Assembly: GCA_963682055.1 (NCBI GenBank)
Contig: OY821741.1
Location: forward strand, 20,451,211 to 20,515,210
Origin: Primula veris
Lineage: Eukaryota > Streptophyta > Magnoliopsida > Ericales > Primulaceae
DNA length: 64,000 bases
Reading direction: 5' to 3'
Under the pieces are notes generated by a model. It was not told the DNA's origin and did not search any database. It saw nothing but the letters and a program-made list of their open reading frames with translations. A program made the translations under genes and the position numbers. This document shows, one piece after another, positions 2,083 through 42,283 of the stretch; within the stretch, counting starts at the first letter, position 1; each line of letters opens with the position of its first letter.

Positions 2083-3959
2083 ATTGGGGGTCAAGATAAT
2101 CCAATAGAGAATAACATAGATCAAACTGATATAACTCCAGAGTTTAATGAAATATTGGATAATAATGATAATCATGAAGCTGAACAGATTACTATGGAAA
2201 TTGCAAATAAAGAACGGGCATCTCCGACACACAACTAATACCAAACCAATCACCTGCTTCAGATGTTCACGATTTAGTGTTGGAACCGTCTAAGAGGCAG
2301 TTACCTTAGCACGACACGAGAGGTATTTCTAAGTCCACATATGAACTTGAACTGACTAGTAAAGCCAAATATCCTATGAGTAATTATGTTTCTAACCATC
2401 GCTTGTCAGGATCAAATATGTCATTTGTGAGTCAATTATCTGTTGTATCTATTCCTAAAAATATGCAGGAGGCCTTAAATGATCGGAGATGGAAAGAAGG
2501 TATGAATGAGAAGATAAACTCCTTGTAGAAAAATGAAACATGGGAACTCGTTGAACTTCCACCTGGTAAATAACCAGTTGTATGTCGATGGATTTACACC
2601 GTGGAATACAAAGATGATGGAGAAATTGAACATTTTAAAGCAAGCCTGGTAGCGAAAGGATACTCTCAAACCTATAGAATTGACTACACCGAAACGGTTG
2701 CACCAGTAGCAAAAATTAACACAGTCCGAGTTTTGTTATCTTTAGCTGCAAACTTGGACTGGCCATTACATCAATTGGATGTGAAGAATGCGTTTCTACA
2801 TGGAGAATTGACTGAATACGTCTATATAGATCTCCCTCCTATATTAGAACCTCCAACTAATCGAAAAGTATGAAGGCTTAAAAAGTCATTATATGGCTTG
2901 AAACAATCCCCAAGAGCGTGGTTTGGACGATTTACTAAATCTATAATAGCCTTTGGATACCATCAAAGGAATGCAGACCACACTTTATCTCTTAAGAAAC
3001 ATCAAAATAAGATTAATGCACTCATTATTTATGTTGACGATATGTTGGTCACATGAAATGATGATGGAGAGAGAAAAGCTCTGCAAAATTACTTGTCCAA
3101 AGTATTTGAAATGAAAGACATGGGAAATTTGAAATACTTTCTTGGGATCGAAGTGTCTCGTTCTACTAAAGGTATTTTCCTATCTCAAAAAAAATATACA
3201 TTAGATCTATTGCGAGAAACTAGCATGTCGGATTGTCATCTGGCGGAAACACCCGTATAAGAAGGTTTAAAGTTATGTGTAGAGTCTAACCAAGTACTGA
3301 CCAATAAGGAAAGATATCAAAGGCTTGTAAGAAAATTGATGTAATTAGCGCACACTTGGCCAGACTTGGCATACGCATTGAGTATTGTTAGCCAGTTTAT
3401 GGATAATCTTGGCAAGAAACACATGGATGCAGGTACTCGAATTCTGAGGTACCTTACCTTCTCCGGGAAAAGGAATTTTGTTTATGAAAAATGTAAGTCA
3501 TCAAAACATAGATGCATATACTAATGCCGATTGGGCTGTGGAGCTATAGATGATAGACGATCAACGCCTGGTTACTTTACCTTTGTGGGCGGTAACCTTG
3601 TTATGTGGAAAAGAAAGAAGCAAAACGTTGTTGCTCGTTCAAGTGCAAATGCTGAGTTCAGAGGTCTGGCCATTGGATTATACGAAATATTGTGGCTGCG
3701 ACTTCTATTAATGACTTGGGTTATGAACCTCGATAACCAATTCAACTATATTGTGACAGTAAGGCAACATGTGATATCATCCGTAATCCAGTTCAACATG
3801 ATTGAACAGAGCATGTAGAGATCGGCAGATTTTTCATTAAGGAGAAGTTGGATGAAAAATTTCTGGAGTTGCCTAAGATACGATCTTAGGACCAGTTGGC
3901 TGACATGTTCCAAGAAAAGTTGGGTATGTATGACATCTACGCCCCAACTTTAGGAAGAG
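2083..3959 (+). pseudogene. Host Ty1/copia pol remnant, copy 1: reverse transcriptase and RNase H part
   Basis: This continues the element broken by the solo LTR. After a degenerate linker, the RT domain begins near 2470 (WKEGMNEK, then ETWELVELPPG). It runs through [12 protein letters not shown] (about 2777), KSLYGLKQSPRAWF (2884) and the catalytic YVDDML (about 3031). The RNase H region follows: RYLTFSGK, DDRRSTPGYFTFVGGNLVMW (3547) and NVVARSSANAEF. There are at least six in-frame stops, among them after GELTEYV...NRKV at 2873, directly after YVDDMLVT and inside ETPV. The same RNase H stretch occurs on the - strand at 26837-27343 with fewer stops. It cannot encode a working enzyme. Confidence 0.9.
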
Positions 3960-4142
3960 TGTTGAGATTATATCCCTACTAATCCGGGGATTGTACACTT
4001 AAATGTTTCTATATATGTTTTCTCTAATTAGGAACACAATATTTACATATTTCATTTGCTATTCTAGCTTGTATAGTATTCTATAAGTTGTATCATCATC
4101 ATTCATTGGAATATATGAAAAATACAATTTTGTAAACCTACA
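3960..4142 (+). mobile_element. 3' LTR of the host copia, copy 1
   Basis: A 183-bp sequence starting TGTTGAGATTATAT and ending GTAAACCTACA. It matches the 5' LTR at 49339-49519, which is followed directly by a primer-binding site, and the inverted LTR at 26355-26536. It lies just after the end of RNase H. The short LTR marks the host copia as a different family from X, whose LTRs are 1.4 kb. Confidence 0.9.
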
Positions 4143-4521
4143 ATTTTTTACTAATATACTATTTCCTTCCAATTCTAGGATATTGTAATTTCCCTCAATA
4201 ATGTAGGCTCTACTCTTATCAGCGTTTTATATTCTTTTCTATTTTGTTAATTTGAAAGTGTAATAATATGTCGGGATTCCTTTCATGCTTGAAAAAAGTT
4301 TAAAATTAGTTTATCTTCTTTCGTTTGATTTCTGCTTATTTCTTGAGGCAGATTTTTATATCGATCTTAATCGGTTGATATATATTCCTTCATATCGAAA
4401 ACTTTTTAATTTTCTTTTACCCGTGATTCGGTCATTTTTAATGATATATTCATACTTCATCTTGATAAATTCATAGTAAATGTTATTTATGTGAATGGTT
4501 TATTTCTTTGCGGACAAATCT
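4143..4521. repeat. Genomic flank of the host copia, inverted copy of about 26060-26354
   Basis: Non-coding AT-rich DNA that matches, in reverse complement, the flank beside the - strand copia LTR at 26355-26536. The copia and its insertion site were therefore duplicated together in opposite orientation. Homology stops at about 4520, exactly where the giant inverted repeat begins. Confidence 0.8.
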
Positions 4522-6249
4522 TATAGAGGTTTTACTGTAGATTTATGTTGCTAAAAAAATCTTAAAATGGGATGTGGGTTATGTTCCTAGATTTTCGTCT
4601 TTTTTCTCCTTATGTGTTTGTGATATCAAAAACATGAATTGCATCATTAGATATTCCCTTTTACATGGTGCAATCGGTGAATACTATAAATACTGAAAAA
4701 TAAATTGAATCGTGATTTTTTATGTGCGATAATCAGATTACGTGCCTTCATAAGGAAAACGGAAAAATCCATTTATAATCAATTATAGTGAAAGAAAATT
4801 CTGAAATCTGATAGCTTCTCAGTATTTCATTGTATTCTATTACAAAAAAAAAGTCTCTCATTATCTACGCTCTATTCACCCTCAGATTCAGAACAATCTA
4901 CAAGGAAAACTTTTGAACTCTCCAAATTTAATTTTTTTTAACTATTTTTCATTTGCTCGAACATCTTGTTTGTTTAATGGACAACCTCAAAAATGACCTA
5001 TTGGCGATCGTCCTTCAACATCTCAATGACAACAAATATCATGAGACCCAACGATCGTGAGTGTCTCTATTTTTTTTATTGTGTATATAAATATGTTTGC
5101 ATGCATACACATCTTTCTAGCAATTAATGATATGTTATTCTTAGTACTTGTCAATTTTCAAGTGGATTGCTTTTCAAAAAGGATTTGCAAAGTAAAAAAA
5201 TTAAAAAACTTAAACATTGAAGCACTTTTTAATCATTATCAAAACGATAGATGTCCCCGAACGAGTATTGGAAAATAAGAAATCTCTTATTTTGCGTTAT
5301 TTTGAGCCAATATGATGAATCATGATATTTTTGAGAATATATTATTTAATCTAAAATCACTTTTTAAAAAGTTGTTTAAAAAATCTAATGAGAATCCAGA
5401 ATTTTGTTTTCAAAATTTTTGTAGTCTTTTAGCCAAAAAACAAGTATAAAAGCTAAATAATATAACTTTCCAAACACTCTATGATTTTTACATCCAAATT
5501 TTAGAAATCAGGGAAAAAATGTGTTACCAAACGGAGTTGGATTATGCCCAATCATAAGCGAAATCGTTTTATCACGGATTAAATAATTTGGATTAAAACC
5601 AAATTTCTCATACTACTAATCCAAATTAATTAGATCAAATTTACACAAAAGTTATTTAGATTGGGCAATACCAATAATAACTTTTAATCGAATTCGTATT
5701 TAAATCAAGTTCGTCTTTATTTTTAGTTGTCATATATGTTCTTCAGATTCGTATACCGGAAAATACATTAGTTTTCTTTTTGACTTTGTTTTTGAAAAAT
5801 GCATTAGATAATGTAGTTCATTTTATTTGGAATGGTTTTCCCAAAAAGAAAATAGTACTACTGCATACAACTTTTTTTTTTGGGCTGCTCGAGTTACAGG
5901 TGGAAAGAAAAAGTTGTTAACGGTTTGGTATTGTAGTAAAATATGTACCAATTAAAAACAATTGGTTTGTTTTTGTTTGATTTTGTTTGGTTATGACTAA
6001 AATAATTGTCGTAACGGAACCAAACTAGACCAATCATAGTCGGTTTCGTTTGACCAGTTTGAACTCTAACAAAAAAAAAAACAAAATGAGAATTAACACT
6101 AACAGGTTAGTTTCGGCTTTCAATTTATAGATTTGTTTTTAATTTTGAGATAAAAAAAAAAACAAGTAAATTAACTATAAATTAACAAAATATTATATAT
6201 TGAATCATTAAATACAAATAACAATTAAATTAACATTTTATCTCAACTT

Positions 6250-6268
6250 ATATATATATATATATATA
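6250..6268. repeat. (TA)n microsatellite in intron 1 of the left arm
   Basis: A short pure TA run. The matching place in the right arm (about 11617-11672) holds a much longer TA tract. Confidence 0.85.
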
Positions 6269-6398
6269 ATAAATCGGTCGGTTTGAAAACCACTAAAATC
6301 GTAAAATTAACCGATTCAATCGATTCATTTGATTTATCATAAATATTGTACTCAGTGTGTGACTGTGTGTCTAATTGAACTGTTTATTAAAAAATTAT

Positions 6399-6727
6399 AG
6401 GCACGTTTGAGCTTAGTTGTTATCTTATTACTTGTTTAGTGACTTCTAACTTTTTTGTTTATCAATAAGTCAGTATTTCACTAATGTTGACTTACGAAAT
6501 ATTTGGAAATATACAAACATGTTTCTTTAAAAAAAAAATTATTTTTTATAATTTTTATGTGAAAAAGATAAGATAATCCGTAAATTTTTATCTTCTCTGA
6601 TTTTGAGCTTTTTTTAGCCTTTTTGACCAAAAGCTAGCTTATAAAAGCTAACAAACAAAACATTCATAGCTTCTATTAAGCAAAAAGCTAAAATGGCTGA
6701 GAAAAACAGTTGTTGCCAAACATGCAC
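6399..6727. repeat. Possible MITE inside intron 1 of the TOPLESS-like pseudogene (left arm)
   Basis: Edges read GGCACGTTTGAGC at the left and, inverted, GCATGTTTGGCAACAAC at the right. The sequence between is of the AGCTTTTTG / TTTGTTAGCTTTTATAAGC type common in small plant DNA elements. The same block lies in the right arm at about 10757-11155. The reading frames here are just the translated repeat. No clean target-site duplication was found, so this is tentative. Confidence 0.35.
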
Positions 6728-9700
6728 TATGTTAGATATAGTTTCATAGATATTTATTAGAATAAATTGGATAACTTTCCCGAAAATAGGGGGAATCACA
6801 CTGATCGATAGTAAAACTTTGAAGGCTTGCTTGTTTGGATGCATCTATTAAGAAAATAATCTGGCTTATTCAAGGACGAGAAAAAACCCGAGACCATTTG
6901 GGTCGAAACTTCTATCTTTAGGGGAAAGAAAACTAAAAAGTATGAACCTCCAAAGATTTATTCAAATTTAATTGAACTAACTGATTAGCCAAACTTAAAA
7001 GCTTGTCCAAAGAATAAAACTATCTGAATATATATTCCATTAATTGGGTTACTAGTTGTTGGATGGTACTTTTCTAATAACTAAACTATCTGAATCAACT
7101 GATTAGAATCAAATAAGTATTGCTCATATGTTTGGGTGAATTATATAGGCTTGAGCAAGAATTTGGAATCTTTTTAAATCTGAAGCAATTTGAAGAGAAA
7201 GTAATAGCTGGTGAATGGGAGGACCTTGAAAAATACCTCGGCTTTACCAAGATGGATGAAACTAGATTTCGATGAAAATTTTCTCGGAGTTAAGGACGCT
7301 AAAATATCTGGAAGCCCTTGATCGGTATTCTTTTTTATCCGTTTCGTTTTGTAGCTCTGTTTCGATCATATATAGTTATTTGACATTATTTGTCTCCTAC
7401 GTATGTTTATAGAAATGAGAGAGACAGAACTTTTGGTATATTAAGAGATGATCAGGAGGTGTTCTCTTTATATGACGATGACATGTATAAGGAGTTGTCC
7501 CATCTCATGAGCCTAGAGAATTTCAGGTAAAATAGTAAATAATATAATGTGTCTTTACCTAATTTGAGAGTGATGACAGTACACTGCTTAACGTAGTACC
7601 AGAGTAGGCCCATATTCTTGGTTCAAATCTCACCGCTACCTTACTAAAAAGATTGGTTGAAACTTTGTTGCCTATTCTTAATAAGTGATACCATGTGTTT
7701 CACTCTAATAATATATGCATTTAAGTAAAATGATAACACCTCACTTGATAATCAGTTTGACATTATTTAAGTGCTTGGAAGTCATTTTCCTTTCCCATAG
7801 TACTTTTTTATTTGATGGAAATATAACGAAGATTTATAATTCAAGATTCGGAAAAGAAAGATTGTCGGTATACACGGTAGAGACATGTATCCATGTGCAC
7901 GAGTATTTTTTAAAAAAAGTGTGCACTTTCTATAATGCTTTTGTTTTTTTCTGAGACTTTTATATAGTTATATTGTTAGTTTTAAGTCCAAATGGAGCTG
8001 CTTGCTATAAAAAGATATCCACTGCTATTAGATTTGGAGGCTAACAACTGAACTATATAATGCTTTGTTTCTTGATGTTTAATCATTTTAATAAATTTCA
8101 GAGAACATGGACCTCTACGAAACTATGGTGATGTGCAAACATCTCGGATTAAATTGTTTATTTCTCTCAATGGGATTATAGAGGCAAACCCCAGTTTTTA
8201 CTAAAATCTTGATTTCCCTTCTTTTGGTTCTGCAAGACTTATGAACATGCTCAATCAAAGTTGATTTTTTTTCCAAAGATAGTAAATTATGTTGGGACTA
8301 AGAAGGCGGACATTGTTTAGTTATGTATTTCTTGTTAATCGTTTTATATCTTAATCCACATACCTTTTCTTATCCATGCAGGGAAATAACAAATGTCTAG
8401 TTAAAAATAACAAAACATATTGCATAAAACACAACATTTTATTATTTCAACGATAAAATAATTGGCTTTTCTTCTACTCTATTATTTTAACTAATGTTGC
8501 TAAAGTGCTTTGACTTCCTTCATAAAAAAATATTTTCTCCATATTATCAAAACTCAAGCTGCTAAAGGAATGTTGTACTTGTTTAGCAATTCTCTATGAA
8601 CTTTGCAGCAAATTGGTGATGTCCCTCAACATAATCCTAGTGATGTTAATTTTTGCACATATCATCTGCCAACAGCGTTTTAATTTCTGGAAACCCCCTC
8701 CAGTTCTCACATAAGAGATGTTGCATGTTAGCACTGGATCGATACCAAGAGAGCATATTTATTAACCCAATAAAATGGCAACATAGCATAGTGAAGATGA
8801 TATGTGCAAAAATTAACATCACTAGAATTATGTTGAGGGACATCACCAATTTGCTGAAAAGTTCATAGAGAATTGCTAAACAAGTACAACATTCCTTTAG
8901 CAGCTTGAGTTTTGATAATATGGAGGAAATATTTTTTTATGAAGGAAGTCAAAGCACTTTAGCAACATTAGTTAAAATAATAGAGTAGAAGAAAACCCAA
9001 TGATTTTATTGTTGAAAGAAACATTTAAACTCGAAACACCAAAATGTTGTGTTTTATGCAATATGTTTCCTTATTTATTTAGGCATTTGTTATTTCCCTG
9101 TATGGATAAGAAAAGTTATGTGGATTAAGATATAAAACCATTAACAAGAAATACATAACTAAACAATATCTGCCTTCTTAGTCCCAAACTAGTTTACTAT
9201 CTTTGGAAAAAGAAAATCAACTTTGGTTGAGCATGTTCATAAGTCTTGCAGAACCAAAAGAAGGGAAATCAAGATTTTAGTGAAAACTGGGGTTTGCCTC
9301 TATAAGCCCCTTGAGAGAAATAAACAATTTAATCCGAGATGTTTGCGCATCACCATAGTTTCGTAGAGGTGCATGTTCTCTGAAATTTATTAAAATGATT
9401 AAACATCAAGAAACAAAACATTCTATAGTTCAATTGTTAGCCTCCAAATCTAATAGCAGTGCATATCTTTTTATAGCAAGCGGCTCCATTTGGACTTAAA
9501 ACTAACAATATAACTATATAAAAGTCTCAGGAAAAAACAAAAGCATTATAGAAAGCGCACAATTTAAAAAAAAAAACTCGTGCACATGGATTCATGATTC
9601 TACCGTGTATACCGACAATCTTTCTTTTCCGAATCTTGAATTATAAATCTTCGTTATATTTCTATCAAATAAAAAGGTACTATGGGAAAAGAAAATGACT

Positions 9701-11384
9701 TCCAAGCACTTAAATAATGCCAAACTTATTATCAAGTGATGTGTTATCATTTTACTTAAATGCATATATTATTATAGTCAAACACATGGTATCACTTATT
9801 AAGTTTAGGCAACAAAGTTTCAACCAATCTTTTTAGTAAGGTAGCGGTGAGATTTGAACCAAGAATATGTTCCTACTCTGGTACTACGTTAAGCAGTGTA
9901 CTGCTATCACTCTCAAATTAGGGAAAGGCGCATTATATTATTTAATATTTTACCTGAAATTCTCCAAGCTCATGAGATGGGACAACTCCTTATACATGCC
10001 ATCATCATATAAAGAGAACACCTCCTCATCACCTCTTAATATACCAAAAGCTCTGTCTCTCTCATTAATATAAACATACGTAGGAAACAAATAATGTCAA
10101 ATAACTATATATGATCGAAAGAGAGCTAAAACACGAAATAGATAAAAAAATAATACAGATCAAGGGCTTACAGATACTTTAGCGTCCTCAACTCCAGAAA
10201 ATTTTTAGAAAATCTATTTTCATCCATCTTGGTAAAGCCAAGGAGGTATTTTTCAAGGTCCTCCCATTCACCAGCTATTACATTCTCTTCAAAGTGCTTT
10301 AGATTTAAAAAGATTCCAGATTATTGCTCAAGCCTATATAATTCACCCAAACATATGAGAAATACTTATTTGATTCTAATCAGTTGGTTCAGATAGTTTA
10401 GTTATTAGAAAAGTACCAACCAACAACTAGTAACCCAATTAATGGAATCTTTATTCAGATAATTTTATTCTTAGGACAAGCTTTTAAGTTTGGCTAATCA
10501 GTTAGTTCAATTAAATTTCAATAAAGCTTTAGAGGTCCGTACTTTTTAGTTTTCTTTCCCCTAAAGATAGAAGTTTCAACCCAAATGGTATCGGGTTTTT
10601 TCTCATCCTTGAATAAGCCAGATTATTTTCTTAATAGATTCATCCAAACAAGCAAGCCCTAAAAGTTTTACAATCGATCAGTGTGATTCCCCCTATTTTT
10701 GGGAAAGTTATCCAATTTATTCTAATAAATATCTATGAAACTATATCTAACATAGTGCATGTTTGGCAACAACTGTTTTTCTCAGCCATTTTAACTTTTT
10801 GCTTAAACGAAGCTACGAATGTTTTGTTTGTTAGCTTTTATAAGCTTGTTTTTGGTCAAAAAGCCTAAAAAATGTCTAAAAGCAGAGAAGATAAAAATTT
10901 GCGGATTATCTTATCTTTTTCTCACAAAAATTATAAAAAAATATATATTTTTTTAAAGAAACATGTTTGTATATTTACAAATAATTCGTAAGTCAACATT
11001 AGTGAAATACTGACTTATTGATAAACAAAAAAGTTAGAAGTCACTAAACAAGTAATAAGATAAAAACTAAGCTGGTGCCAAACACCACAATGAGTATTGA
11101 GCAATTTTTCTTCTTTTTAGGAGCGTTTTGACCAATAAAACTAATCTCAAACGTGCCTATAATAATTTAATAAACAGTTCAATTAGACACACGGTCACAC
11201 ACTGAGTACAATATGGTGAAAAATTAAGACCTAAACATAAGAAAGATGATATATAATGGCTATATATATTTTTTGTAATGAATATATAATGGCCAAGCAG
11301 CATGCATACCATGCAAATATTTAGCCTTATCGTGGTTGACCCTATATATGTGTAGATACATATATATAATAGAATCATCGCCAT

Positions 11385-11437
11385 GGGTGGGAGGGAGGGA
11401 GGGAGGGAGGGAGGGAGAGAGAGAGAGAGGGAGAGTT
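11385..11437. repeat. (GGGA)n / (GA)n microsatellite, right arm only
   Basis: About seven GGGA units followed by GA repeats and another GGGA. It lies in a roughly 290-bp stretch (11215-11500) absent from the left arm. Runs of three G at 4-bp spacing could form a G-quadruplex on the + strand. Confidence 0.85.
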
Positions 11438-11616
11438 TTACTATCAGACCGTTCAACTCCCGGGGGGCAATTATGATTAAATTATTGGGTACATAAACAT
11501 AAACCAAACCAATTGAACCAATCAAAACCCATTTGGTTAGAAATTTGATAAATAAAAGGAATCGGTTAATTTTACGATTTTAGTGGTTTTCACACAGAAC
11601 AATTTTTTTTATATAT

Positions 11617-11618
11617 AA

Positions 11619-11668
<50 letters not shown>

Positions 11669-11672
11669 ATAT
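11617..11672. repeat. (TA)n microsatellite, right arm
   Basis: An interrupted TA/TATA tract of about 55 bp, the expanded counterpart of the 19-bp tract at 6250-6268. Confidence 0.85.
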
Positions 11673-12630
11673 AGGTTGAGATAAAATGTTAATTTAATTG
11701 TTATTTGTATTTATTGATTCAATATATAATATTTTGTTAATCTATAGTTAATTTACTTGTTTTTTTTATTTTGATCTTAAAATTAAAAACAAATATATAA
11801 ATTGAAAGCCGAAACTAACCTGTTAGTGGTATTCTCATTTTGTGTTTTTTTTTGTGGGAGTTCAAACTGGTCAAACGAAACCGACTATGATTGGTCTAGT
11901 TTGGTTCCATTACGACAATTATTTTAGTCATAACCTAACCAAATGAAAGAAAGACAAACCAATTGTTTTTAATTGGTACATATTTTACTACAATACAAAA
12001 CCGTTAACAACTTTTTCTTTCCACTTGTAATTCAAGCAACCCAAAAAAAAAGTTGTATGCAGTAGTACTATTTTCTTTTTGGGAAAACCATTCCAAATAA
12101 AATGAACTACATTATCTAATGCATTTTCCAAAAACAAAGTCAAAAAGAAAACTAATGTATTTTCCGGTATACGAATCTAAAGAACATATATGACAACTAA
12201 AAATAAAAACGAACTTGATTTAAATCCGAATTCGATTAAAGTTATTATTGGTATTACCTAGTCTAAATAACTTTTGTGTAAATTTGATCTAATTAATTTG
12301 GATTAGTAGTATGAGATATTTGGTTTTAATACAAATTGTTTAATCCATGCTAAAACGATTTTGCTTATGATTGGGCATAATCCAACTCCGTTTGGTAACA
12401 CATTTTTTGCGCGATTTCTAAAATTTTGATCTAAAACTCATAGTGTGTTTGGAAAGTTATATTATTTTGCTTTTATACATGTTTTTTGGCTAAAAGACTA
12501 CAAAAATTTTGAAAACAAAATTCTGGATTCTCATTAGATTTTTTAAAGAAATTTTTAAAAGGTGATTTTAGATTAAATAATATATTCTAAAAAATATCAT
12601 GATTCATCATATTAGCTCAAAATAACGCAA

Positions 12631-12849
12631 GAATTGCATACATCCTTGCAACTTTGGATATCTTGTTTAGTTGCACATTACTTTTGTATCCATGGAGAGT
12701 TTATTTACATCTCATATGATACGCATAATGTAATCATGTTAAGATGACAATTGGCAACCATTCCACATCAATAAGATATAAATCAAACGGGGTTGGCATC
12801 AAATGTCGGATTGGATGCGCCTTTATAAAACATCAAGAAGGGTCGTAAC
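12631..12849. repeat. Right-arm-specific insertion of about 220 bp
   Basis: The left arm reads directly from AAAATAACGCA into AAATAAGAGATTTC (inverted, about 5275-5300). In the right arm these are separated by about 220 bp that includes a GCATACATCC start and GATGCGCC near the end. No terminal repeats or coding potential were recognised. It may be an insertion, or a piece lost from the left arm. Confidence 0.6.
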
Positions 12850-13610
12850 ACAAAATAAGAGATTTCTTATTTTCCAATACTTGTTCGGCGACATCTATCG
12901 TTTTGATAATGATTAAAAAGTGCTTCAATGATTAAGCTTTTTTAATTTTTTTACTTTGCAACTCTTTTTTGAGAAGCACTCCACTTGCAAATTGAAAAGT
13001 ACTAAGCGTAACATATCATTAATTGCTAGAAAGATATGTGTATGCATGCAAACATATTTATATACACAATAAAAAAAAACAGAGACACTCACGATCGTTT
13101 CGTCTCATGATATTTGTTGTCATTGAGATATTGAAGGAAGATCGCCAATAGATCATTCTTGAGGTTGTCCATTAAACAAACAAGATGTTCGAGCAAATGA
13201 AAAATAGTTAAAAAAATTAAATTTGGAGAGTTCAAAAGTTTTTCTTGTAAATTGTTGTGAATATGAGGGTGAATAGAGCGAAGATAATGAGAGACTTTTT
13301 TTTTTTGTAATAGAATACAATGAAAGACTGAGAAGCTATCAGATTTCAGAATTTTCTTTCACTATAATTGATTATAATGATTTTTCTGTTTTCCTTATGA
13401 AGGCACGTAATCTGATGATTGCACATAAAAAATTACGATTCGATTTATTTTTCATTAATTATAGTATTCACCGATTACGCCATGTAAAGGGGAATATCTA
13501 ATGATGCAATACATGTTTTAGAGATCACAAATACATAAGGAGAAAAAAGACGAAAATCTAGGAACATAACCCACATTCCATTTTAAGATTTTTTTACCAA
13601 CATAAATCTA

Positions 13611-13721
13611 CAGTAAAACCTCTATAAATTAATAATGTTGGGACCATGAAATTTTATTAATTTAGATAGTTATTAATTAACCGATAAATTAATAGTTATT
13701 ATTTTAGTGAGGTTTTTATTG
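13611..13721. mobile_element. Pogo/Emigrant-like MITE at the outer edge of the inverted repeat
   Basis: It starts CAGTAAAACCTCTATAAAT after a TA and ends in the inverted, diverged form AGTGAGGTTTTTATTG, about 111 bp apart, with no coding capacity. The start resembles the terminal repeat I recall for Emigrant/Lemi1-type pogo elements of plants, which insert at TA. Only the first 16 bp are mirrored at the left end of the giant inverted repeat (4522-4537). A copy lies at 37967-38077. Superfamily assignment is from memory. Confidence 0.5.
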
Positions 13722-14149
13722 ATTTAATATTTTTACTCCTTCAAAACATAAATTAAATCATTATATATTTTTTTAATTAATTTGTGGGGAAAACCCACAT
13801 TTTATTAATGAAAAACGTGGGTGAAAAACCCCATAGAAATAAAACCATGTAGCAATACAGAAAAGATCTCAAACGACGAGACCCAAAAGAAATAATAGAA
13901 AACTATTACATCCAATTGAAATTAATGAAAAAGGAAACTCCAAAATCTGCTAAAGCAGGATTCAATAGACTGGCGAACGAAACTTGAAGGACTAAAACTG
14001 TAATATAGATGTAATAATTCAACAGCTGTCCTCTTCCACCTCTTCATTTCCCATGAGAATTGAACGAAGAGAGAGAATCTTTCTTTTTACCACCGTTCTC
14101 CATTATCACCGAAATCTTAGGTTAGAAAAACCTTTAGCTTCAGTGAGAA

Positions 14150-17100
14150 TGATCCCTTTCAGAACATGAGGAAAATCATCCAAACAAGAAGAGGCGATGT
14201 TACCCTCCCAATTTGCAAGAAGATCAGCAGCCTTGTTGCCTTCTCATGCCACGTGTTTGAACAGATACTCACCATCCTTTAACATATCTTTAATAAGGTT
14301 TAACACGTCTATAACCTTCTGAGGGCATTTTTTTTACCTTCTACAATTTTACTTAATAGCAATGAATCACTCTCAATAATAAGTTCTTTTTTTGGTGAAA
14401 TTAGAAGACCATAATAGAGAGCTTTGAACTCTGAATAGAGAGTTGAAATACTGGCAATAGATCTAGAAAACCCTTTAACAAAAGTGTCATTTTCATCCCT
14501 AATTAAACCTCCAATACCATTAATGGCCTATGTTTGTTTATAACAACCATTTATATTAAGTTTCATAAACCCAGTTGAAGGATGAAGCCACTTAATAATA
14601 GTGACCTTATGAATTTTCTTCTTACCACTAAAATTAGAATAAGAGAAACCTTTCTCCTTATAACCAGACAGGATAATCAACTCTTCAGTTTTTCGAATAA
14701 TATTACAGGACCTCATTTTGATATTCTCAAATTTGCATGAGCATCTGGATTTCCAAATTAACCAAATAATGAGAGAAGGTAGAACCTGACAAATTTTTTT
14801 CCAGAGAAATGCTTTTTCTTAGTGATATGAGACCACCAACTGTTAATTCTTCCATATAAAGAATTATTCTGAATAAATATCCCCCATTTTCTTTCAAAGA
14901 ATTTCCAGACTTCATTGGCTACTATACCAGTACTAAAAAGATGATCAAATGTTTCTTTTGATGTTTTACAACAACCACACATAGAAGCCATACTAATGCC
15001 AAATTTATGCAGATTGCAATCCAAGGAGACTGCTTGATTAAATAATTTCCACATGAAGCAAGAGACTTTTAAAGGTACCATTCTATTCCAAATAAATGAA
15101 CTTCTCCAATTTACAGTACCTACCTCTCTAGAAATCTCCCAAGCTGAATTTATAGTAAAATTCCCTAGATTAGTAGGTTTCCATATAGGTGTAACCCCAT
15201 TTCCAGCTATAATGGAATTACTATAAGTAAATTCTCTAGCTTGAAGCATTCTGCACCAAGTAGTAGTTCCTCCTTTAATAGGGATGCCTTCTGCTTGTTT
15301 ATTCCTACAGTATTTTGTTTTCAAGAATTTGGTCCACAAAGATTCTTTTGTTTTGAACTTCCACCAGAGTTTCATTGCAAAAGCTTTTGATATATCATGA
15401 AAAATTTTAACATTCAAACCCCCTTCTTTCACAGGAGTACAAATTTTGCTCCACCTAACCCAATGGTACTTATTTTTACCATTTTTGTTACCCCAGAAAA
15501 AGTTTGACAGCAGTTGGTCTATTCTTTTAATCACTTGTAGTGGAGGATTCATATCAGCCAATGTATAAATAGGTATAGATTGAAGAACATGCCTAATTAG
15601 TATTAATTTCCACCCAAATTTAGCCAGTTACCCTTCCACGTAGACAGCTTACTTTTCACTTTTAGAATAAGTTCATAAAAAATAATACACTTTTTGTGCC
15701 CATAATATAATTTGCAACCAAGGTAGGAGAAAGGAGGTCTCTTACTAGTGATATTAAGCTCTTTGAAGATATTTTCTTTTTGTATTGCACTCACACTTTT
15801 TGAGAAATAGACAAAGCTCTTGTCTAAGCTGATTTCTTGACCAGAATCTTGATTATAACATTGCAGGGTGTTGCTTATCTTTCTGATAGAATGAAGGTCT
15901 GCTGAACTAAAAATAAGTAAATCATCAGCAAAAGCAAGGTGAGTGATAATAGGGCTTCCAATAGGAGATTTAAATGCTGACCATCTTTTGTTATCAATCA
16001 AGTCATTTAAATTTCTACTTAAAACTTCATAACATAATATAAATAGACAAGAGGAAAGAGGATCCCCCTGTCTCAGGCCATTTTTGGGAGTAAAAAGCTC
16101 AGTTGGGTTGCCATTCACCAAAATAGAAGTCTGATTTCCAGAAATAATCCTCCATACTAAGTCAATAGTCTTCTCAGAAAAACCCATTTTTCTTAGTGTA
16201 GAAGTAAGAAAATGCCAAGAAATACGATCATAAGCTTTTTTCATGTCTAGCTTTAAAGCTATGTTTTTAACACTTGTCTTTTTATTGAGAGTTGAGATAA
16301 ACTCCTGAGCAAGAAGAATATTGTCCACAATGTCTCTAGATTTAACAAATCCACTTTGATTCTCAGAAATAATATTAGGAAGTATAGTAGCAAATCTAGA
16401 AGACATAATTTTTGAAATGATCTTATTGCAAAAAGTACATAAGCCGATAGGTCTGAATTCAGCAAACTTCTTTGGCTTGATCTTCTTTGGTATTAAAGCA
16501 ATAACAGTAGTGGATAGAGATCTAGGAAGTAAATTTCCCATGAAAAAAAGATTAATAGATTTGATAATGTCTTCTCCAATAAAATTCCAACAGGATACAA
16601 AAAACTGACCTGTAAAACCATCTATTCCAGGAGCACTAGATTTGCTTAGATCAAAAACAGCTTCTTTTACCACTTCTATAGTAGGGTCTTTGTCTAAGAA
16701 GTTATTAACCTCTGTAGAAATAAGTTTAGGAATATTATTCAAACAATTATATACATAAGAATGAGAATGATCTGCTGCTAATAGGCTTTGGAAATAATCC
16801 ATAGCCTCCTTTTTAATAACCACTGGGTCTCTAGTGCAAGTACCATCTTCTTTTTCTATTTCACCAATGACACACTTTAGTCTTCTTTTCTTTACTATAC
16901 TGTGATAAACTTTTGTATTAGCATCCCCTAGTAAAGGCCATTTCAGATTAGCTTTTTGACCCCAAAATTTTTCTTCTATGCTGGGATTAGCTTTTAGAGT
17001 AGCTTCCACCTTATTGAGCTCAATTATGTTGACAGGTGTTGGGTTCATTTCAAACTGCTGCTCTGCTCTCAGAAGATTGTCTTCAGCTTTTGTTATTTCT

Positions 17101-17981
17101 TGAAATATATTCCCAAAGGTATTATAATTCCACCCTTTCAATCTCTTTCTAGTTGTCTTTAAATTAGCAGCAAGGTTATCCAATGCATTATAATTAGAAC
17201 TGGAAACCCATACTTCTTTCACTGCATTAGAAAAGCCTTGATGATCTACCCAAAATTTTTGAAATATAAACCTTTTAGGATTGTTGACTGGAACCAACTG
17301 TAATTTTAACAACAAGGGACTGTGGTCTGAAGTAGCTTTACTCAAATGATCAAGATAAATATTGTAGAATAAATTTGCAAACTCTTGATTAAATAGTATC
17401 TTATCTATTCCTTCAAAAATAGAATCCACCCCACTACGCTTGTTCCACCAAGTATATTTAGAGCCACTATAGATAGTTTCTGAGACACCCAAATTGTTAA
17501 TACAAGACAGGAAATCATTAGCTGAATTAATATTAATAGGCAAACCCCCAATTTTATCTTCCTCTGTTGAAACAGTATTAAAATCCCCTCCAATCAACCA
17601 AGGATTAACAGTGAAAGAATTTTCTAAGAAATTCCAAAGAACTTCTCTTTCAGCTGCTGTGCACTTGGCATAGACCACTGTAATTTGTAACTGTAGACCC
17701 AAATAATCAATAGAAACTGCCACATTTACAGCTTGATTCATTTGATTAATAATAGAAATGTTAATCTCTTGCATATAAAAGACCCAAATCTTATTGTCTT
17801 CATGTACCAGAACTTCATCAAACCCAAACTTCCTTTGATGAAACTCCACTTTATCTTGATTTTTCTTTGGTTCTAAACAGACTAAAAACATAATATGATG
17901 TAATTTACATAGCATATTCATACTCCTAGTAGTAGATTTAGTACCCACTCCTCTGATATTCCAAAAGAGTGTATTAATCAT
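14150..17981 (-). pseudogene. LINE ORF2, copy 1: endonuclease, reverse transcriptase, zf-RVT, RNase H
   Basis: The frame starts MINTLFWNIRGVG at 17981. The endonuclease part shows LIGGDFNTVSTEEDKIGG and SDHSPLLLKL. The RT follows with LIPKKIKPKKFAEFRPIGLC, NGLRQGDPLSSCLFILC and the catalytic FADDLLIFSS (about 15920). After LSTWKGNWLNL a one-base loss near 15607 shifts the frame, shown by comparison with copy 2 (39961 onward). The second piece (15561-14758) carries the zf-RVT region with CGCCKTSKETFDHLF. Weaker frames from 14716 to about 14150 read WLHPSTGFMKLNINGCY, IESDSLLLSK and, after a further shift, NKAADLLANW, a type I RNase H as found in many plant L1 elements. The 792-residue first piece is unusually intact for this window. 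Confidence 0.92.
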
Positions 17982-17983
17982 TT

Positions 17984-19320
17984 AAAACTTTTTTTAACCC
18001 CTACATTAGAGGATCTAAGAACCATAGCATCTTTAGCAACAACAATTGAAAGTTTCCCCAATTTTCTCTTATTTTTTGGTGTTTTCCATTCTCCTTCTTC
18101 TAATATATTGGGAATTTCCCTAGGGGAGAGACCCAGATCAATTCTAAGGTCTTTAGATATATCTGGAGCATCAATGAGATTAGAATCTCTCATTGTCACA
18201 TTTTCATCAAAATATGGTGTGATATTTAAAGGCCTTAGAACTGGTTCACCTATAAATAGTACTATATCAGTGTTAAGATTACACTTTTCTCCCCTTTCAT
18301 CCTCCATTAATAAAACTTTTTTGGCATTTTTAGAAAATTCTGCAGCTGGTATCTTTGCTGCTGCTTCTTCACCATTTCTTGCAATTTCTTTATTAAAGCT
18401 TTTAGTAACCCATTCTCTTGTGCCTATTTTCTCTTGGTTGTAATAATTGGCCCTTTTTTTTTTCTTTTCTTTAGCTTGCTTTTCACAATTTTCTTCTATG
18501 TCCTTTGCTGCATCTTTCCCTTTGCTAGTATTTTCTTCTTTGCTTCCCCTTCCCTCTTATATATTTTCTAGATTAGTGAACTTACAGGCCTCTATAGAAT
18601 GACCTAGTTTAAAACATTGAGAACAGTATTTTGGTACATCTTTGTATTTGCAATGTTGCCAGAATCCTTCACTTTCTCCATAATTTATTCTAACTCTTTT
18701 TATCAGAACTTTTTTTAAGTCAATTTCAACACAGATTCGGGCTAGACCTGGTCTAGTCAGTTTCACTGTTGGTTCGCTACTTTAAGTGGTTTTCCAAAAG
18801 CTGAAGCAATACTAAATATGCTACATTTATTGTAAAGATGGATAGGTAGTTTCGATAGAGAAATCCAAACAAGGGTAACTGGGGATTCTTTTTCTGGACT
18901 AAAATCGTAGGACCATTTAAAGGTTTTCATTGGGATATTGTCAATGTACCAAATTTTGCACATCCAAATTCGTAGAAAATCTTCTTCATAATAACAACGA
19001 ATTAGAATATGTTTTGAATCAATGACTCCAATATGATAGTTAGCTTTCAAATCCATAGAACTAAACGTTTTACGAATTATATCTATATGAGGCTTACCGT
19101 GTGAGAATTTTCCGACAATAGTATATTTGAATGGTTCTGAAAGAGTGTTTAGATCTTCAATTGTATAATGAATCATTGGTTCTCCTTCATAAGATTCGAT
19201 TTCTTTAACTGGAACTTTAGATGTCACAGTTTGGGTTTTTAATATGGATGCGAAAGATTTAGATGTAGGTGGGTCCGGGGAAAGGGTTTGGTTGGGGTCA
19301 GGTGGCTGAAGAGCGGTCAT
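17984..19320 (-). pseudogene. LINE ORF1, copy 1 (nucleic-acid-binding protein), broken
   Basis: ORF1 starts MTALQPPDPNQTLSPDPPTS at 19320, after a GA-rich leader, and stays open to 18763. A frame break follows. The next piece (18766-18557) includes a CCHC zinc knuckle, CSQCFKLGHSIEAC, and then a stop. A third piece (18307-17978) is the basic C-terminal region (WKTPKNKRKLGKLS). The domain order, an N-terminal DUF4283-like region and then a zinc knuckle, is typical of plant L1 ORF1 proteins that bind the element RNA. ORF1 and ORF2 are separated by only a few bases. In copy 2 the zinc knuckle is deleted. Confidence 0.85.
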
Positions 19321-19425
19321 TTTTCTGGCGGCTAGGGCTTTTCACCCTAGTCGTCTCTCTCTCTCTAGGGTTTCGGTTTAATGATTAAGATTATTATGAT
19401 TTAATATATAAATTAAATCATTATA

Positions 19426-21269
19426 AATTACTAATAATGCTCGTTAAACTCGTTAGTAAAGGCAAATACACTATTTCAATTACTAATATATAAATTTTGT
19501 TACATTTTAAACCATATATCAAACTAAAAATAGATATTAGATTCATGATATACGTTTGATCAATTTTATGTATATTCACCATCATTGAATAAAGTAGTAC
19601 AACTCATTGTTTAATCGCATATAGAACTTAATAATTGTTTGGTGCAAACCGCAAACACAATACAAGATATCTTACCTTGGTTGGTACATCACTAGTACCT
19701 CTTGATATGCGACATCTTTTATTGAAATGTCATAAACAACGATCAGTATGATTTCACTCACCATAACCTTCTTTGATCACCCGACCGTTTAAATTTTCTT
19801 CATTTCCAACAGCAAGCTCAAGGATAGACATAATTTATCACCTCCTTTCAAATTATATCGTTCCTCGAAAAGGGAAATGTTATAGAAATCCAATATGGGG
19901 ATTGTTTTTAGGTTTCTAAAGAGAAATCGAATTTAAGCATCATGTTTATACATTGAAACAACATAGTTTGATGAAAATCAAATTCTAACACACATATCAA
20001 TAAATTAATAAAATGGTCATGTGTTTGCATTTGTGTTTGTGCATAAATATATTAGTAAAGAGAGAGAGGGGGGAGAAAGAGAAATAATAAGAGTATAAAG
20101 ATATACTACAACATTGCTCTCTAGGTTAGACAACTTGACTATGGCTTGGTTTGTGGATCTATAGGGTTATCAAGAACCCATAAAAAGCCGAGAATATTAG
20201 TTATGGGTCACCTTTTACAAGATTTTTTAAATGGAGATCATGGGCCAAAACTTTTTTAAGTTCCAGTCATTCGGCCCAATAAAAAAGAGCTTAGAAGTTT
20301 TCTTTAAGCTTAAAAAATAATTTATAATCTATATGGAAAAGATATTAAAATGTAAATAAGAGGTTAAAATTTGTTCTTAAGCTTAAAATAATATATTATA
20401 AGCTACACGAGAAAGATATTAAAGTGTAAAAAAATAACTTAAAAGTTGTTTTTTTAGTTTTTTGTCATTTTTTTTAGTGTTTGTTTTAATTATTAAGTAA
20501 AAAAAAGATAACAAAAAGTTACATAAATAATATATATTTTTCAGTTGTAAGTTAACCTACATTTAAAATTTTTATGAGAGTAGTGATCTATGAACAAAAA
20601 TATTATTGAAATGTGATCTCCCACCAATGGCCCTAAAAAGACTCCTATTAAAAAGATATAACCAAAATGGAATGTGAAATTATTAATAAATATAACTTTC
20701 CTTCCCTTAAATATTAAAGACTTCGAACTTGAGAGATGATTCATGTGAGGAAAAAAATAGGATGATGTATAACTTAAAAAGAAAACTAAATGAAGAAAGG
20801 TAAAAAACATTAAAACCTATATATATACTCCAGATTCATATTTTGAAAAAATCAATTATTGTCATTTAACCAAGTGGAAATATTCAAGTTTTCTTGGGTT
20901 GGTTCTTTTAATAGTGTCATTGCAATTATCAAATTTCCTTATTAATACTCAAAAAGAAATATAATAACTATAATAGTTAACACTATTAAATATAGCTTCA
21001 TGATTGCATTTTTGTGTTGTGTTTGCTATCCAACTTGTGTTGAGTTGGTATTATTTTGAGTTATGAAATATTTTGACTATCATCAGTTATCATTATTAAT
21101 AGTATTTGCCTTATTCAGTGCCTAATTTGAAATAATACACTTTATACTTTAAAATTTGTCTCATTTAAGAATCTTTGATTTTTTTTATTTTCATTTTATT
21201 TCCATATTATTCAAATTAATACATAAATAAATTTTATTTTTTAAAATAAATTTTTTTTTAAAGGCAATG
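19426..21269. other. AT-rich spacer with possible exon remnants (about 19696-19832, - strand)
   Basis: Mostly non-coding AT-rich DNA shared with 43139-44964. On the - strand, 19832-19762 reads MSILELAVGNEENLNGRV followed by KEGYG and a GTGAGT. A second open stretch (about 19764-19677) reads DISIKDVAYQEVLVMYQPR before GTAAGA. Both look like short exons with donor sites, but they are in different frames with only about 46 bp available for an intron, and I do not recognise the protein. A GA-rich tract lies at 20058-20085. Nothing else is evident. Confidence 0.3.
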
Positions 21270-21838
21270 TGTAACGACCCAATCCTCCGCCGAATCGCCA
21301 CCATCTCCTTTCTACCACCAATATTGTCCACTTTGGCCAAATTTCGTCATCGTTTCTTGGGCTGTACGGTTTTAAAAGATCTTGATGATAAGAAAGCGGA
21401 TACTCATAACTTATATATCATATATGTACTCACATATATATGGGATTTGGGATAGCTTTCGTCGCTTTAGCAGGTTATTTCCCTCCAGAAATCCAGGTTC
21501 TTACGGTATTCCCCCTTCAGACACGACGTTCCCTTCGGCCACGCCATCCTTTCGGGGTTCAAACGCCGTCTTCAGCTCGATAGCGGCTCTGATACCAACT
21601 ACAACGACTCGGTCTTCCGACCGGACCACCACCATCTGCTTCCTATAACCAATATTGTCTGCTTTGGTCCAATTTCGTCATTGTTTCTTAGGCCGTATGA
21701 GTTTAAAAGGTTTTGGTGATAAAAAGGATGATACTGCTATTTTATATACCATATAGGTAGTCACATATCTAGGCGATGTGGGATAGCCATTTCTTCTCTT
21801 TACCATGGTAATTTTCCATGAAAATCCGGGTTTTTACA
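21270..21838 (-). mobile_element. TRIM-like miniature LTR retroelement, copy 1
   Basis: Two direct repeats of about 235-239 bp flank an internal region of only 95 bp. Left: 21270-21504, starting TGTAACGACCC. Right: 21600-21838, ending TTTTTACA. Shared blocks include CCAATATTGTC, TTTGGCC/TTTGGTCC, TTTCGTCAT, GTTTTAAAAG and GATGAT. Read on the - strand the LTR is TGTAA...TTACA, and the internal region begins with a TGGTATCAGAGCC primer site. There is no coding capacity, as expected for a TRIM, which would depend on other elements for copying. The flanking pentamers do not match, so the ends may be worn. Confidence 0.75.
21585..21597 (-). promoter_or_regulatory. Primer-binding site of the TRIM-like element
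   Basis: On the - strand this reads TGGTATCAGAGCC, the standard plant primer site complementary to the 3' end of initiator methionine tRNA. It starts two or three bases after the right-hand repeat, where the 5' LTR of a - strand element should end. Confidence 0.75.
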
Positions 21839-22798
21839 CTGTTACCTCTTCAGGCATGACGTCCTCGTAATACACAACTCATTTTATGTTCTCAATTTCC
21901 CATAAATCGTATTTTCCCTTTCTCATCGGCAAATATATAGAAGGAGCTAACTTAACACTTTAAAAATAATTTTAGCAGACCACTAATCGAAAACCTTTTC
22001 TCGTTCAAATCAGAACTACTAATAACTTGAGCAAGCTAAAGAGCAATAAGTACTTTTATCTGTCACCTTGCACTCCGTAAACTAATATATATGTATATAT
22101 CCATTTTTGTCCATTCAAGATGACACATGTCAGTATGAACATATATATATATATTATATATACATTATAAATACATATACTTGTTGGTGCTCTAACTTTC
22201 CCTATATTTGGTGCTCTAACTTTCCCTATATTTCCTTTCATTCACTTTCTCGCATTTTCCGCTTATCCACTCAGACACACGGTAAACTTGTGAAGCTCAT
22301 AAGTCGTCATCGTATGGCTAGTAATTATAAAAAACTTTACCGCTTATTGTACCTAGATATAAACATCATGCTTCGATGTCACTTCAGCATCACTTCAGAT
22401 ACGGAATGTGTCTATGTCAATGTCAAGTGGTCGAACAATCATGGAAGAATATGATAGCTTAACGTCATTACGGCTAAAGTATCATAACACATTTTGGGTG
22501 TAGTATGAATCATGGCCTCAATTTTTTTCTTTACGGGACTCAATTTTCATGCCGAGTCAATGACATGTGTCGAAATGCATGAATGGATCCGTCATATCGA
22601 AAATGACAAATCCTTAATTGGATCGTTTCAAATCTGAAAAGGTCAATAATGTGTAAAATTAATGTATGCATGGATCCTCCCCTTATCTGTATCTATGTGT
22701 ATGAATATATATACACACACACACTTATAAGCTTAAAAAAGCTCATATTCCGAAACTTTTTTCGCCTATAAAGTGTAACTCCTGCATGTCTAACAATA
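21839..22798. other. Non-coding spacer with a 339-bp block missing from A'
   Basis: AT-rich DNA matching 45514-46138 except for 22102-22440, which is absent there. The A' junction reads TATATATC-ATGGAAG, with ATC available at both ends as microhomology. The extra block contains an adjacent direct repeat of about 22 bp (TTGGTGCTCTAACTTTCC, starting at 22183 and 22208). No gene was recognised. Confidence 0.6.
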
Positions 22799-23085
22799 TC
22801 TATGAACTCACTTTTAATTATACATACAGTTAATGTCACGCCCCAAAAACCTAAAAACGGATATCAAGAAAGGAAAAGGAACCTGTTGTTAAAAAGGTCA
22901 TGCCTTGATATCCGTTTTTAGGATTTTGGGGTTTAGGGTTTAGGGTCTATGAACTCACTTTTAATTATACATACAGTTAATGTCACGCCCCAAAATCCTA
23001 AAAACGGATATCAAGAAAGGAAAAGGAACCTGTTGTTAAAAATGTCATGCCTGGATATCCGTTTTTAGGATTTTGGTCCGTGACA
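22799..23085. repeat. 147-bp tandem duplication containing two copies of a 105-bp MITE, with a telomere-like junction
   Basis: TCTATGAACTCACTTTTAAT occurs at 22799 and again at 22946, and what follows is duplicated. The first MITE (22834-22931) has lost its last bases, replaced by GGGTTTAGGGTTTAGGG (22929-22945). The second MITE (22981-23085) is complete, from TGTCACGCCCCAAAA to a terminal GTGACA, with a perfect GTTAA duplication on both sides (22976-22980, 23086-23090). The inverted termini share about 33 bp (CTAAAAACGGATATC inward), so the unit folds into a hairpin. A' has a single copy at 46176-46280. Confidence 0.85.
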
Positions 23086-23090
23086 GTTAA

Positions 23091-23453
23091 CGACTGTACA
23101 AACGATAAATCCGCAACTATTATTTTCCTAATAAAAATTTATTCCACCACCACAATTAAACGCTGGATTGGTTTTAAAAATCACACAGAGGCAAATATTT
23201 ATTGCAGAATGCTGACAAGGTACGACAAAATAGTACCAGAAGTTTAATTTATGTAAAGAAGTATTGACAGACTGGTGAGTGAAATTAAAACTAAAATTAT
23301 CAATCTATTGTTGCCTCCATCATCATTCCCAATAACAAGAAATATATATCTAGCTATAATAAAAGAGAAAAGTAAACTAACTTAAGTATTTAACAAGTAT
23401 GAAATCATTTTGTTCATTACTAAATATAGATTATTTATGACAAATAACTTTAG
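23091..23453. other. Non-coding spacer
   Basis: AT-rich sequence shared with 46286-46648. No repeat boundary or gene was recognised. Confidence 0.5.
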
Positions 23454-23461
23454 ATTGACTA

Positions 23462-24172
23462 CAGTGCCGTCTCCAGCATTTTGGAGAACTAAAGCCGATC
23501 AAAAAAATGGGCCCTAAATATAAAGATTACTTTAACCATTAAAATATATAAAAAAACACCCGAATTGATAATTTACTCTTTTTCCAACTATGTTTTAAGT
23601 AAATAATATGGCACAACCGCACCTGATAAATTATCAGAATAAATTATTAAATCAATCATTTACACAAAATTGAGAATAAATATACCAAATTAAAATATTA
23701 ATTTAAAATCACCAAATTTAGTTATCTAAATCATCCCAAAAAGTTCATGAGTCATAGGCCATATGAATAAACCAGATTCTTTTTTGTTGTACTATTTTTT
23801 TTAGGTTAGCCTAACCTAGTTTTTTTTGGGCTATTCGATCAAAAAAAATCTCTTCCAAGATTTAACAAAAATTATGGAAACATTACTACGTAGAATTGCC
23901 TACATACATTCCTCGATAACACGAGTAGTTAAAAAAAGAAACAAATTTCAATGCGATTACGGTACGTTATTTTAGATTAACACAATCATAAATCCGGTAA
24001 ATGTGTGTCAGCCACTAAAAACCCAACACCTATTAATGAACCTAAAATAACTACTAGCCTAAAATTAATTTTAAATTAAAACTAAATTCATAAAAAAATA
24101 AAAAAATGGGATGCTATAATTTTGGTGGCCCCAATTTTATGCTTTTTAAATTTGGCTCTCCAGCCGATCCTG
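23462..24172. mobile_element. hAT-like non-autonomous DNA transposon, copy 1
   Basis: Ends are CAGTGCCGTCTCCAGC at the left and, inverted, CAGGATCGGCTGGAGAGCC at the right. Immediate 8-bp flanks are ATTGACTA (23454-23461) and ATTGAGTA (24173-24180), a target-site duplication with one mismatch. An 8-bp TSD and CAG-type ends fit the hAT superfamily. The 711 bp between contain GGGCCC near the left end and GGCCCC near the right but no transposase frame. The A' copy has lost its right end. Confidence 0.65.
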
Positions 24173-24180
24173 ATTGAGTA

Positions 24181-24844
24181 AGTTGAGTTGTGCAAGTGGT
24201 TGTGACATTAGTAAATCCTGCATGTGATCATAATTCAATCATTTCCACTATTGAGTGTGATTATTATCAAATATAACTTTAGATTCTTCATGTTCTATTT
24301 TAATATCAGTTATTTATTCATGTTTATTACTAAGGAAAGAAAAAAAGTATCTTGTTATAATTTTTTCTGGTAAATCACTTATTAGCCAATGATCGCATAT
24401 AGCTTGCTTTATGTTTTCCCTTACCATATCATATTCGTCTTCGTTGTCTTCATCTACTTCCTCCATTTTTCTCATAGCTACATAAAAATTGTAAATTTAC
24501 TTACTACTTTTGAATTTCTTCTAATGAAAAGAACTCAGGTTTAAAGTTGTGAGGAAAAAAATGAGGATATGTTCCTTTATATAGAGAAATGTGTCATGAA
24601 GTCTAGGGTTGGAAAGGACAATAATTATTTTTTCAAAGATGCGGCGCCATTGTCCGTATAAAGTGTTTACTTTTAGGGTTATAATAACAAGAATTGCAAC
24701 GTGGCCCATTGGTAATGTTACCTGACCCCGATTGGTCCTTGAATTAATGTAATTCAGCTGGTGAATCACACGATATTGAACCATATTAATTTGATATATA
24801 TATTTATCTGCAATCAATGTTGTTCTTGCCTTATTTGGGATAAT
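24181..24844. other. Non-coding spacer
   Basis: AT-rich DNA shared with about 47320-47972. The short - strand frame at 24521-24817 has no recognisable domain and is not maintained as one frame in A'. I see no feature. Confidence 0.5.
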
Positions 24845-36660: not shown

Positions 36661-36909
36661 TGTTTGGAGGTATCACCGTTATATATTATCACTTTTGAAT
36701 TATAGTTGTGCCGACTTAATTTTGTTATCAATCCCATTCTAGTGTGAAAAATTATCACTTTCATTGTATTCTATTACAAAAAAAAGTCTCTCATTATCTT
36801 CGCTCTATTCACCCTCAGATTCAGAACAATCTATAAGCAAAACTTTTGAACTCTCCAAATTTAATTTTTTTTAACTATTTTTCATTTGCTCGAACATCTT
36901 GTTTATTTA

Positions 36910-36989
36910 ATGGACAACCTCAAAAATGACCTATTGGCGATCGTCCTTCAACATCTCAATGACAACAAATATCATGAGACCCAACGATC
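36910..36989 (+). pseudogene. TOPLESS-like exon 1 copy, left half of the small palindrome
   Basis: Same 80-bp exon as 4977-5056: ATG, LisH-type LLAIVLQHLNDNKYHET, then GTGAGT. No stop lies within it. No further exons follow. Confidence 0.75.
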
Positions 36990-42278: not shown

Positions 42279-42283
42279 TTAAA

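Follow-up and report, generated by a model that had tools for sequence, protein, structure and literature searches.

We analysed a 64,000-nucleotide stretch of the 436.5-Mb Primula veris genome (C2:20451211-20515210; the window), which contains a large inverted repeat (IR) whose two arms carry the first exons of a gene resembling the TOPLESS/TPR co-repressors of plants. This repeat belongs to an array of related repeats on contig C2, and the closest gene found lies on contig C4. We consider it probable that the array arose by amplification of an inverted pair of truncated TPR-like gene copies and is decaying neutrally.

Based on these results, we propose a model for how the array arose. A divergent TPR-like gene probably gave rise to a truncated copy, and the tail-to-tail duplication of this copy left an inverted pair with unequal ends. 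The 3-6 bp of complementary sequence at the inversion junction are what fold-back or template-switch repair, the putative mechanism, would leave. The pair and its flanks (a unit C'-IR-LINE-D-C, typically ~30 kb, in which LINE is a long interspersed nuclear element) would then have been amplified in one orientation into a ~0.73-Mb array on C2. After amplification, the copies compared appear to have decayed neutrally, through stops, frameshifts and collapsed palindromes, with no preference for codons over introns and no matching of arms within a unit. If transcribed, the locus may well give rise to hairpin RNA and generic small interfering RNAs (siRNAs); its sequence gives no sign that the hairpin has been kept for a purpose.

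The inverted repeat and its gene content

The IR consists of 19 inverted block pairs and lies where the original prediction had put it (4522..13626), with arms at 4517-8667 on the plus strand and 13630-8795 on the minus strand and a spacer of 127 bp (8668-8794). The arms are 94.06% identical (3893 columns identical and 246 different, 4139 in all), and identity per 200-bp bin ranges from 91 to 98% with no trend along the arms. The extra length of the right arm comes mainly from stretches of 223, 46, 319, 74 and 19 bp, out of 23 insertions or deletions in total; in the arm alignment the 223-bp stretch (12631-12853) has no counterpart in the left arm. The 579 nt at the centre fold with an energy of -372 kcal/mol, compared with -111 +/- 6.5 kcal/mol for 100 shuffles (z -40), which excludes a chance origin of the repeat. 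This hairpin contains 72 perfectly paired runs of at least 21 nt and 1232 perfectly paired 21-mers. Thus, any RNA read through the locus would be expected to form the long duplex that had been predicted, and the long, nearly complementary arms with their short spacer have the structure of a long hairpin-siRNA locus.

The TOPLESS-like content of the arms was also confirmed. A hand-joined translation of the exons matched the PDB chains 'Protein TPR1' (E 3.6e-47), which we take to be the rice protein, and 'Protein TOPLESS' (E 4.3e-41). The joined exons also matched the Pfam profile TPR1-like_2nd (E 2e-33, 115.8 bits, cut-off 27); LisH_TPL scored 20.3 bits, below its cut-off of 30.7, and zf_topless was likewise below its cut-off. 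A search of the joined exons against the protein database gave no match at E 0.001. As in the co-repressors represented by these two PDB chains, the LisH, the CTLH-containing domain and the zinc-finger exon stand in the same order. Unlike those co-repressors, the arms have no WD40 propellers, because the copies end in intron 4 (left) or in the zinc-finger exon (right), and their nearest gene belongs to a divergent branch.

The left arm (4517-8667, plus strand) holds the 5' flank and exons 1-4 and ends in intron 4. Exon 1 (LisH) lies at 4977-5056 with the donor GTGAGT, exon 2 (CTLH) at 7149-7324 with a 1-nt frameshift that is absent from the other left-type copies, exon 3 at 7413-7526 with both splice sites intact, and exon 4 at 8102-8270 with a TAA near codon 160 and without its 3' donor GT. 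The splice sites are GT/AG at exons 1-3 and at the exon-4 acceptor. The right arm (8795-13630, minus strand) carries the same gene with stops in exon 2 (CAATAA and CTGTAA), and its exon 3 has lost the acceptor. As had been claimed, neither arm of this unit is whole as a protein gene; this does not hold for the array at large, in which half of the left-type arms read are open across exons 2-4 (see below).

Within the spacer, the right-hand gene (minus strand) continues with the last part of intron 4 and then the zinc-finger exon (SANMQHLLCENWRGFPEIKTLLAD, 8735-8664 on the minus strand), which is cut by the inversion junction. The two gene copies are thus unequal, the left one being cut in intron 4 and the right one in the zinc-finger exon. 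The spacer edges are complementary (ATCATC and GATGAT). In the C4 relative the exon continues D-H, not D-D, so that as little as 3 bp of real homology may have existed at the junction.

The arms were placed correctly, but the positions 4522 and 13626 are not the ends of the mirror homology. It resumes outside them, where 3195-4524 (plus strand) aligns inverted with 27337-26054 (minus strand) at 84.6% including 122 gap columns; separate pieces of this outer part are 91-94% identical. Because the outer right half is displaced by 12.4 kb, the predicted ends are the edge of a one-sided 12.4-kb gap. The left junction has one ATAA in place of the 12.4 kb, which on the right start inside a terminus like that of a miniature inverted-repeat transposable element (MITE) and end at a second ATAA. 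The MITE-like end lies at 13609-13634 (plus strand), its first 17 bp are mirrored at 4521-4537, and it is presumably of Emigrant type. The gap would most simply be a deletion in the left half, although an insertion on the right side could also explain it; in that setting the 4-bp ATAA could in principle be a target duplication. Inside the 12.4-kb stretch, and part of the tandem unit, is a LINE (13800-19400, minus strand; RVT_1, DUF4283). Its observed/expected CpG ratio is 0.21, compared with 0.76 and 0.67 in the neighbouring arms and 0.46-0.88 in fetched TPR-gene pieces, a measure that depends on age and gives no verdict on methylation.

The array on C2 and the order of events

A 1479-bp piece of the arm has at least 66 matches in the genome, of which 53 lie inside C2:20.18-20.92 Mb. 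Of the matches listed, 13 lie elsewhere, all of them partial, with identities of 67-87%. We sorted 52 of the 53 array matches, leaving out one of 34 bp, into 19 groups and at least 21 sites over ~0.73 Mb of C2; this count is a lower bound, as 40 of 296 first-look candidates were scored. The scored matches have a single orientation, with left arms on the plus strand coming before right arms on the minus strand. In 200 kb that were read directly (C2:20165001-20365000), the full unit has the order C'-A-B-T-spacer-T'-B'-A'-LINE-D-C, and other units there lack parts of it. Successive sites are mostly separated by ~30 kb, although within runs the distance can be as short as ~10 kb or as long as ~50 kb. 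At eight of the 21 sites both arms extend past the outer 0.8 kb; among these eight, the site at 20270 kb has a rearranged centre and that at 20374 kb is just 6.4 kb long. Seven have collapsed to short palindromes and lost their core, and at six the scored hits comprise a single arm or a fragment. A complete centre was read in two units, the window's and that at 20304 kb.

One collapsed copy lies in the window itself, as a spacer-less palindrome at 36758-37986. The junction is what a deletion between near-identical 22-bp direct copies of a local palindrome would leave. We rejected a separate fold-back as its source, since its left-type part is nearer to the window's left arm (96.8%) than to its own right-type part (93.1%) and since the junction fits a deletion. 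A second tandem unit extends over 37207-49314 (plus strand), in pieces 95-97% identical to 12852-26182.

Left and right types are 93.7-95.3% identical, whereas copies of one type are 97.4-98.1% identical across units. These results indicate that the inversion came first and the amplification later. Between the two units compared we found no matching of arms within a unit (94.07 and 94.13% within units, 93.95 and 94.35% between units), so that these arms lack the greater likeness within a unit that marks a gene-conversion palindrome. One right-type copy, U270R, contains a tract that is 99% like the left type (C2:20277453-20278146); this tract was probably converted, which suggests that conversion happens at times.

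The lesion shared by left and right types is the lost exon-4 donor. All 14 array copies that were aligned, 11 of left and 3 of right type, lack this donor, whereas the C4 gene still has it; thus, the source of the array probably already ended there. We had also considered the TAA near codon 160, present in both arms of the window, as a lesion older than the inversion. This was dropped because 8 of 11 left-type copies have CAA at this codon; TAA is found in the other 3 and in 3 of 3 right-type copies. The CTGTAA stop and the acceptor loss are common to the three right-type copies in which the exon-3 acceptor was read (the window's right arm, U304R and U270R). The idea that all right arms are dead was rejected, as a stop is present in just 4 of 8 right-type exon-2 matches.

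Several other features were noted in and around the array. In mid-array, ~0.17 Mb (C2:20.52-20.69 Mb) has no scored arm match and may represent an insertion or unscored copies. Between the two units of the window is a 128-bp tandem repeat of 2.9 copies (33351-33726). Copia-type elements with GAG, integrase and reverse transcriptase domains stand in direct tandem at 50814-64000 (52809-56618 with 58614-62428, 95%), and positions 1-2077 match 50814-53261. Four matches of 73-74% on C1, C5, C7 and C9 are limited to 5307-5535, so this stretch of intron 1 could belong to a dispersed repeat.

Related genes and possible RNA targets

Relatives of the arms were found by a genome search with TPR1 residues 1-158. 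There are five canonical-looking TPR genes (on C3, C5, C6, C10 and C11) and a divergent TPR branch that includes the array, C4 and a copy at C2:26.90 Mb. Of the genes found, the one closest to the arms is this divergent TPR-like gene of C4, whose exon 1 lies at 4769986 on the minus strand. It was read as exons 1-4 plus downstream pieces; it is open through exon 4, and zinc-finger and WD40 pieces follow. With ~90% exon identity, it is the related gene that was expected elsewhere in the genome. Within 0.22 Mb on C8 there are also three single-frame TPR-like matches running through several exons (29042977, 29138748 and 29261295), two of them in 723-amino-acid open frames; these stretches are candidate retrocopies or fused genes.

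The C4 gene also provides the homologous candidate target that belongs to a long hairpin-siRNA locus. Within 2 mismatches, 244 of 4131 left-arm and 254 of 4816 right-arm 21-mers match its exons; the copy at C2:26.9 Mb is matched by 64 and 76, and a second C4 copy by 7 and 3. At the same stringency, 903 of 4128 left-arm and 1012 of 4813 right-arm 24-mers match a 3-kb piece of the C4 gene (exons 2-4 and introns), and 50 and 64 match the last 500 nt before its ATG; shuffled arms gave 0 in both cases.

The canonical TPR genes gave a different result, in a comparison that covered their first four exons or fetched pieces of 1.3-2.4 kb. None of the 4131 left and 4816 right 21-mers lies within 2 mismatches of exons 1-4 of the five genes, and no 24-mer on either strand lies within 2 mismatches of the canonical pieces. 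At up to 4 mismatches there are 0-15 matching 21-mers per canonical gene, compared with 0-8 for shuffled arms, and these weak matches fall mostly on C10 and C11. Any hairpin RNA would fit the C4 gene, not the canonical co-repressors, and the suggested link to the broad TOPLESS/TPR co-repressors was not upheld. The same is true of the proto-microRNA label: the arms are 4.1 and 4.8 kb long, not a compact stem-loop with one precise duplex, and Rfam gave no match in the window at the gathering threshold.

Selection, alternative explanations and meaning

Variation among the copies points to neutral decay. Twelve left-type copies were read, and U185L, which has no exon 4, was left out of the set used for pN/pS (nonsynonymous to synonymous variants, corrected for sites). 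The other 11 contain 38 nonsynonymous and 9 synonymous variants (pN/pS 1.05), and introns vary at 82 of 662 sites (0.124 per site) compared with 0.103 at nonsynonymous sites (p = 0.36). Among the six left-type copies that are open the counts are 24 and 6 (pN/pS 0.99), and among three right-type copies 9 and 3 (pN/pS 0.75). Left and right arms diverge by 6.9% in exons and 5.8% outside them (p = 0.33), with rough exon edges. The corresponding dN/dS (the same ratio for divergence) of 0.26-0.40 was rejected as evidence of constraint and is a hint only, as counts are small and synonymous divergence is about twice intron divergence. Against the C4 gene dN/dS is 0.31-0.45, yet divergence in exons 2-4 (8.4-10.5%) and outside exons (9.3-9.9%) is alike. 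Thus, the copies compared look neutral, with no apparent constraint since amplification.

Some results weigh against this reading. Coding differences fixed between left and right types are 4 nonsynonymous to 5 synonymous, compared with 47 to 12 for later ones (Fisher p = 0.037); fixed differences between the array and C4 are 19 to 13 (p = 0.050), and an earlier copy set gave 9:8 compared with 30:8 (p = 0.062). The fewer amino-acid changes among fixed differences suggest that the copy may have been a working gene before amplification. Additionally, exons 2-4 are open and their splice sites kept in 6 of the 12 left-type arms examined, and 4 of 8 right-type exon-2 matches have no stop. Last, neutral letters are compatible with an RNA function, as the Populus ARR17 fragments illustrate (PMC9636151).

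How far could these points carry another explanation? The array might be a trans-silencer, whose hairpin RNA would be diced to 21-24-nt siRNAs that silence the C4 gene through its 5' flank, introns and exons 1-4. The 24-mer fit to C4 with none for shuffled arms, the perfectly paired 21-mers of the window's hairpin, the eight sites that keep both arms and the precedents of PMC9636151 and PMC13064059 are consistent with this. We nevertheless consider it unlikely, since the two units compared show no arm matching, exons show no constraint, and a third of the sites (7/21) have lost their core. It is more doubtful still that the 0.73-Mb amplicon is a dominant multi-copy silencer of the divergent C4 gene. 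Many hairpins with many 21-24-mers would then share the task, which would make letter-by-letter conservation needless; such sharing may occur at sex or mating loci. A protein role seems very unlikely. The open left-type arms would encode a short LisH-CTLH protein (~157-178 amino acids), a possible competitor of full TPR proteins for their partners. Exon 1 is seen and intact in four of the six open arms, and two of the six end at the TAA near codon 160. The universal loss of the exon-4 donor, from a source that probably already ended there, and the fixed-difference hint (p = 0.037) fit such a protein; the pN/pS of the open copies themselves and the frameshift in the window's own left arm do not. 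Given the open arms, and given that the substitution patterns are best explained by the absence of any role, the claim that an RNA role is the only one left cannot be sustained.

Two further explanations concern the repeat as such. A foldback or MITE-like transposon with terminal inverted repeats would account for the MITE-like terminus at both outer ends, but mirror homology runs past both termini and the listed matches outside the array (13 of 66) are partial and diverged, not the dispersed copies of an element that ends at its termini; these findings contradict a transposon, which we regard as highly improbable. Palindromic chimeras are a known class of assembly artefact. To an origin of the IR from chimeric fold-back reads we give almost no credence, as the arms differ by 6% and type-specific differences are common to several units. 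We therefore favour the neutrally decaying amplicon.

Inverted gene fragments are raw material of plant hairpin-RNA loci. Among the titles and abstract openings of open-licence papers listed, none describes a TOPLESS-related inverted or tandem array. Three systems can be compared. Y-linked inverted ARR17 fragments of Populus make 24-nt siRNAs under relaxed selection, and methylation of the target is reported (PMC9636151). The P. veris array resembles them in its inverted, repeat-rich partial gene duplicates, relaxed selection and related intact gene elsewhere; unlike them, it is known from sequence alone and has 4-kb arms with introns at 21 or more sites. The W chromosome of Salix herbacea has seven inverted pairs of PISTILLATA exon 1, for which a function is proposed only (PMC13064059). 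Here too several inverted partial gene repeats share one region, but the Salix herbacea repeats are of one exon, in seven pairs, and sex-linked. The W palindromes of Salix purpurea are likewise large, gene-bearing and disrupted by insertions and deletions (PMC7023750). There, four shared arms average >99% identity and others are at 96-99%, with evidence of gene conversion, whereas the arms studied here are ~94% identical with no homogenisation within two units.

Our results lead to a sharp prediction: siRNAs from the array, if there are any, should match the C4 gene but none of the canonical co-repressors. If such siRNAs are absent, the array would be a clean case of an inverted gene pair that was amplified and then left to decay, and a warning against naming such loci proto-microRNAs by structure alone. 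In sum, this one genome allows a comparison of several stages, among them hairpins that are still large and palindromes that have collapsed, open as well as broken copies, and a related gene that has its WD40 part.

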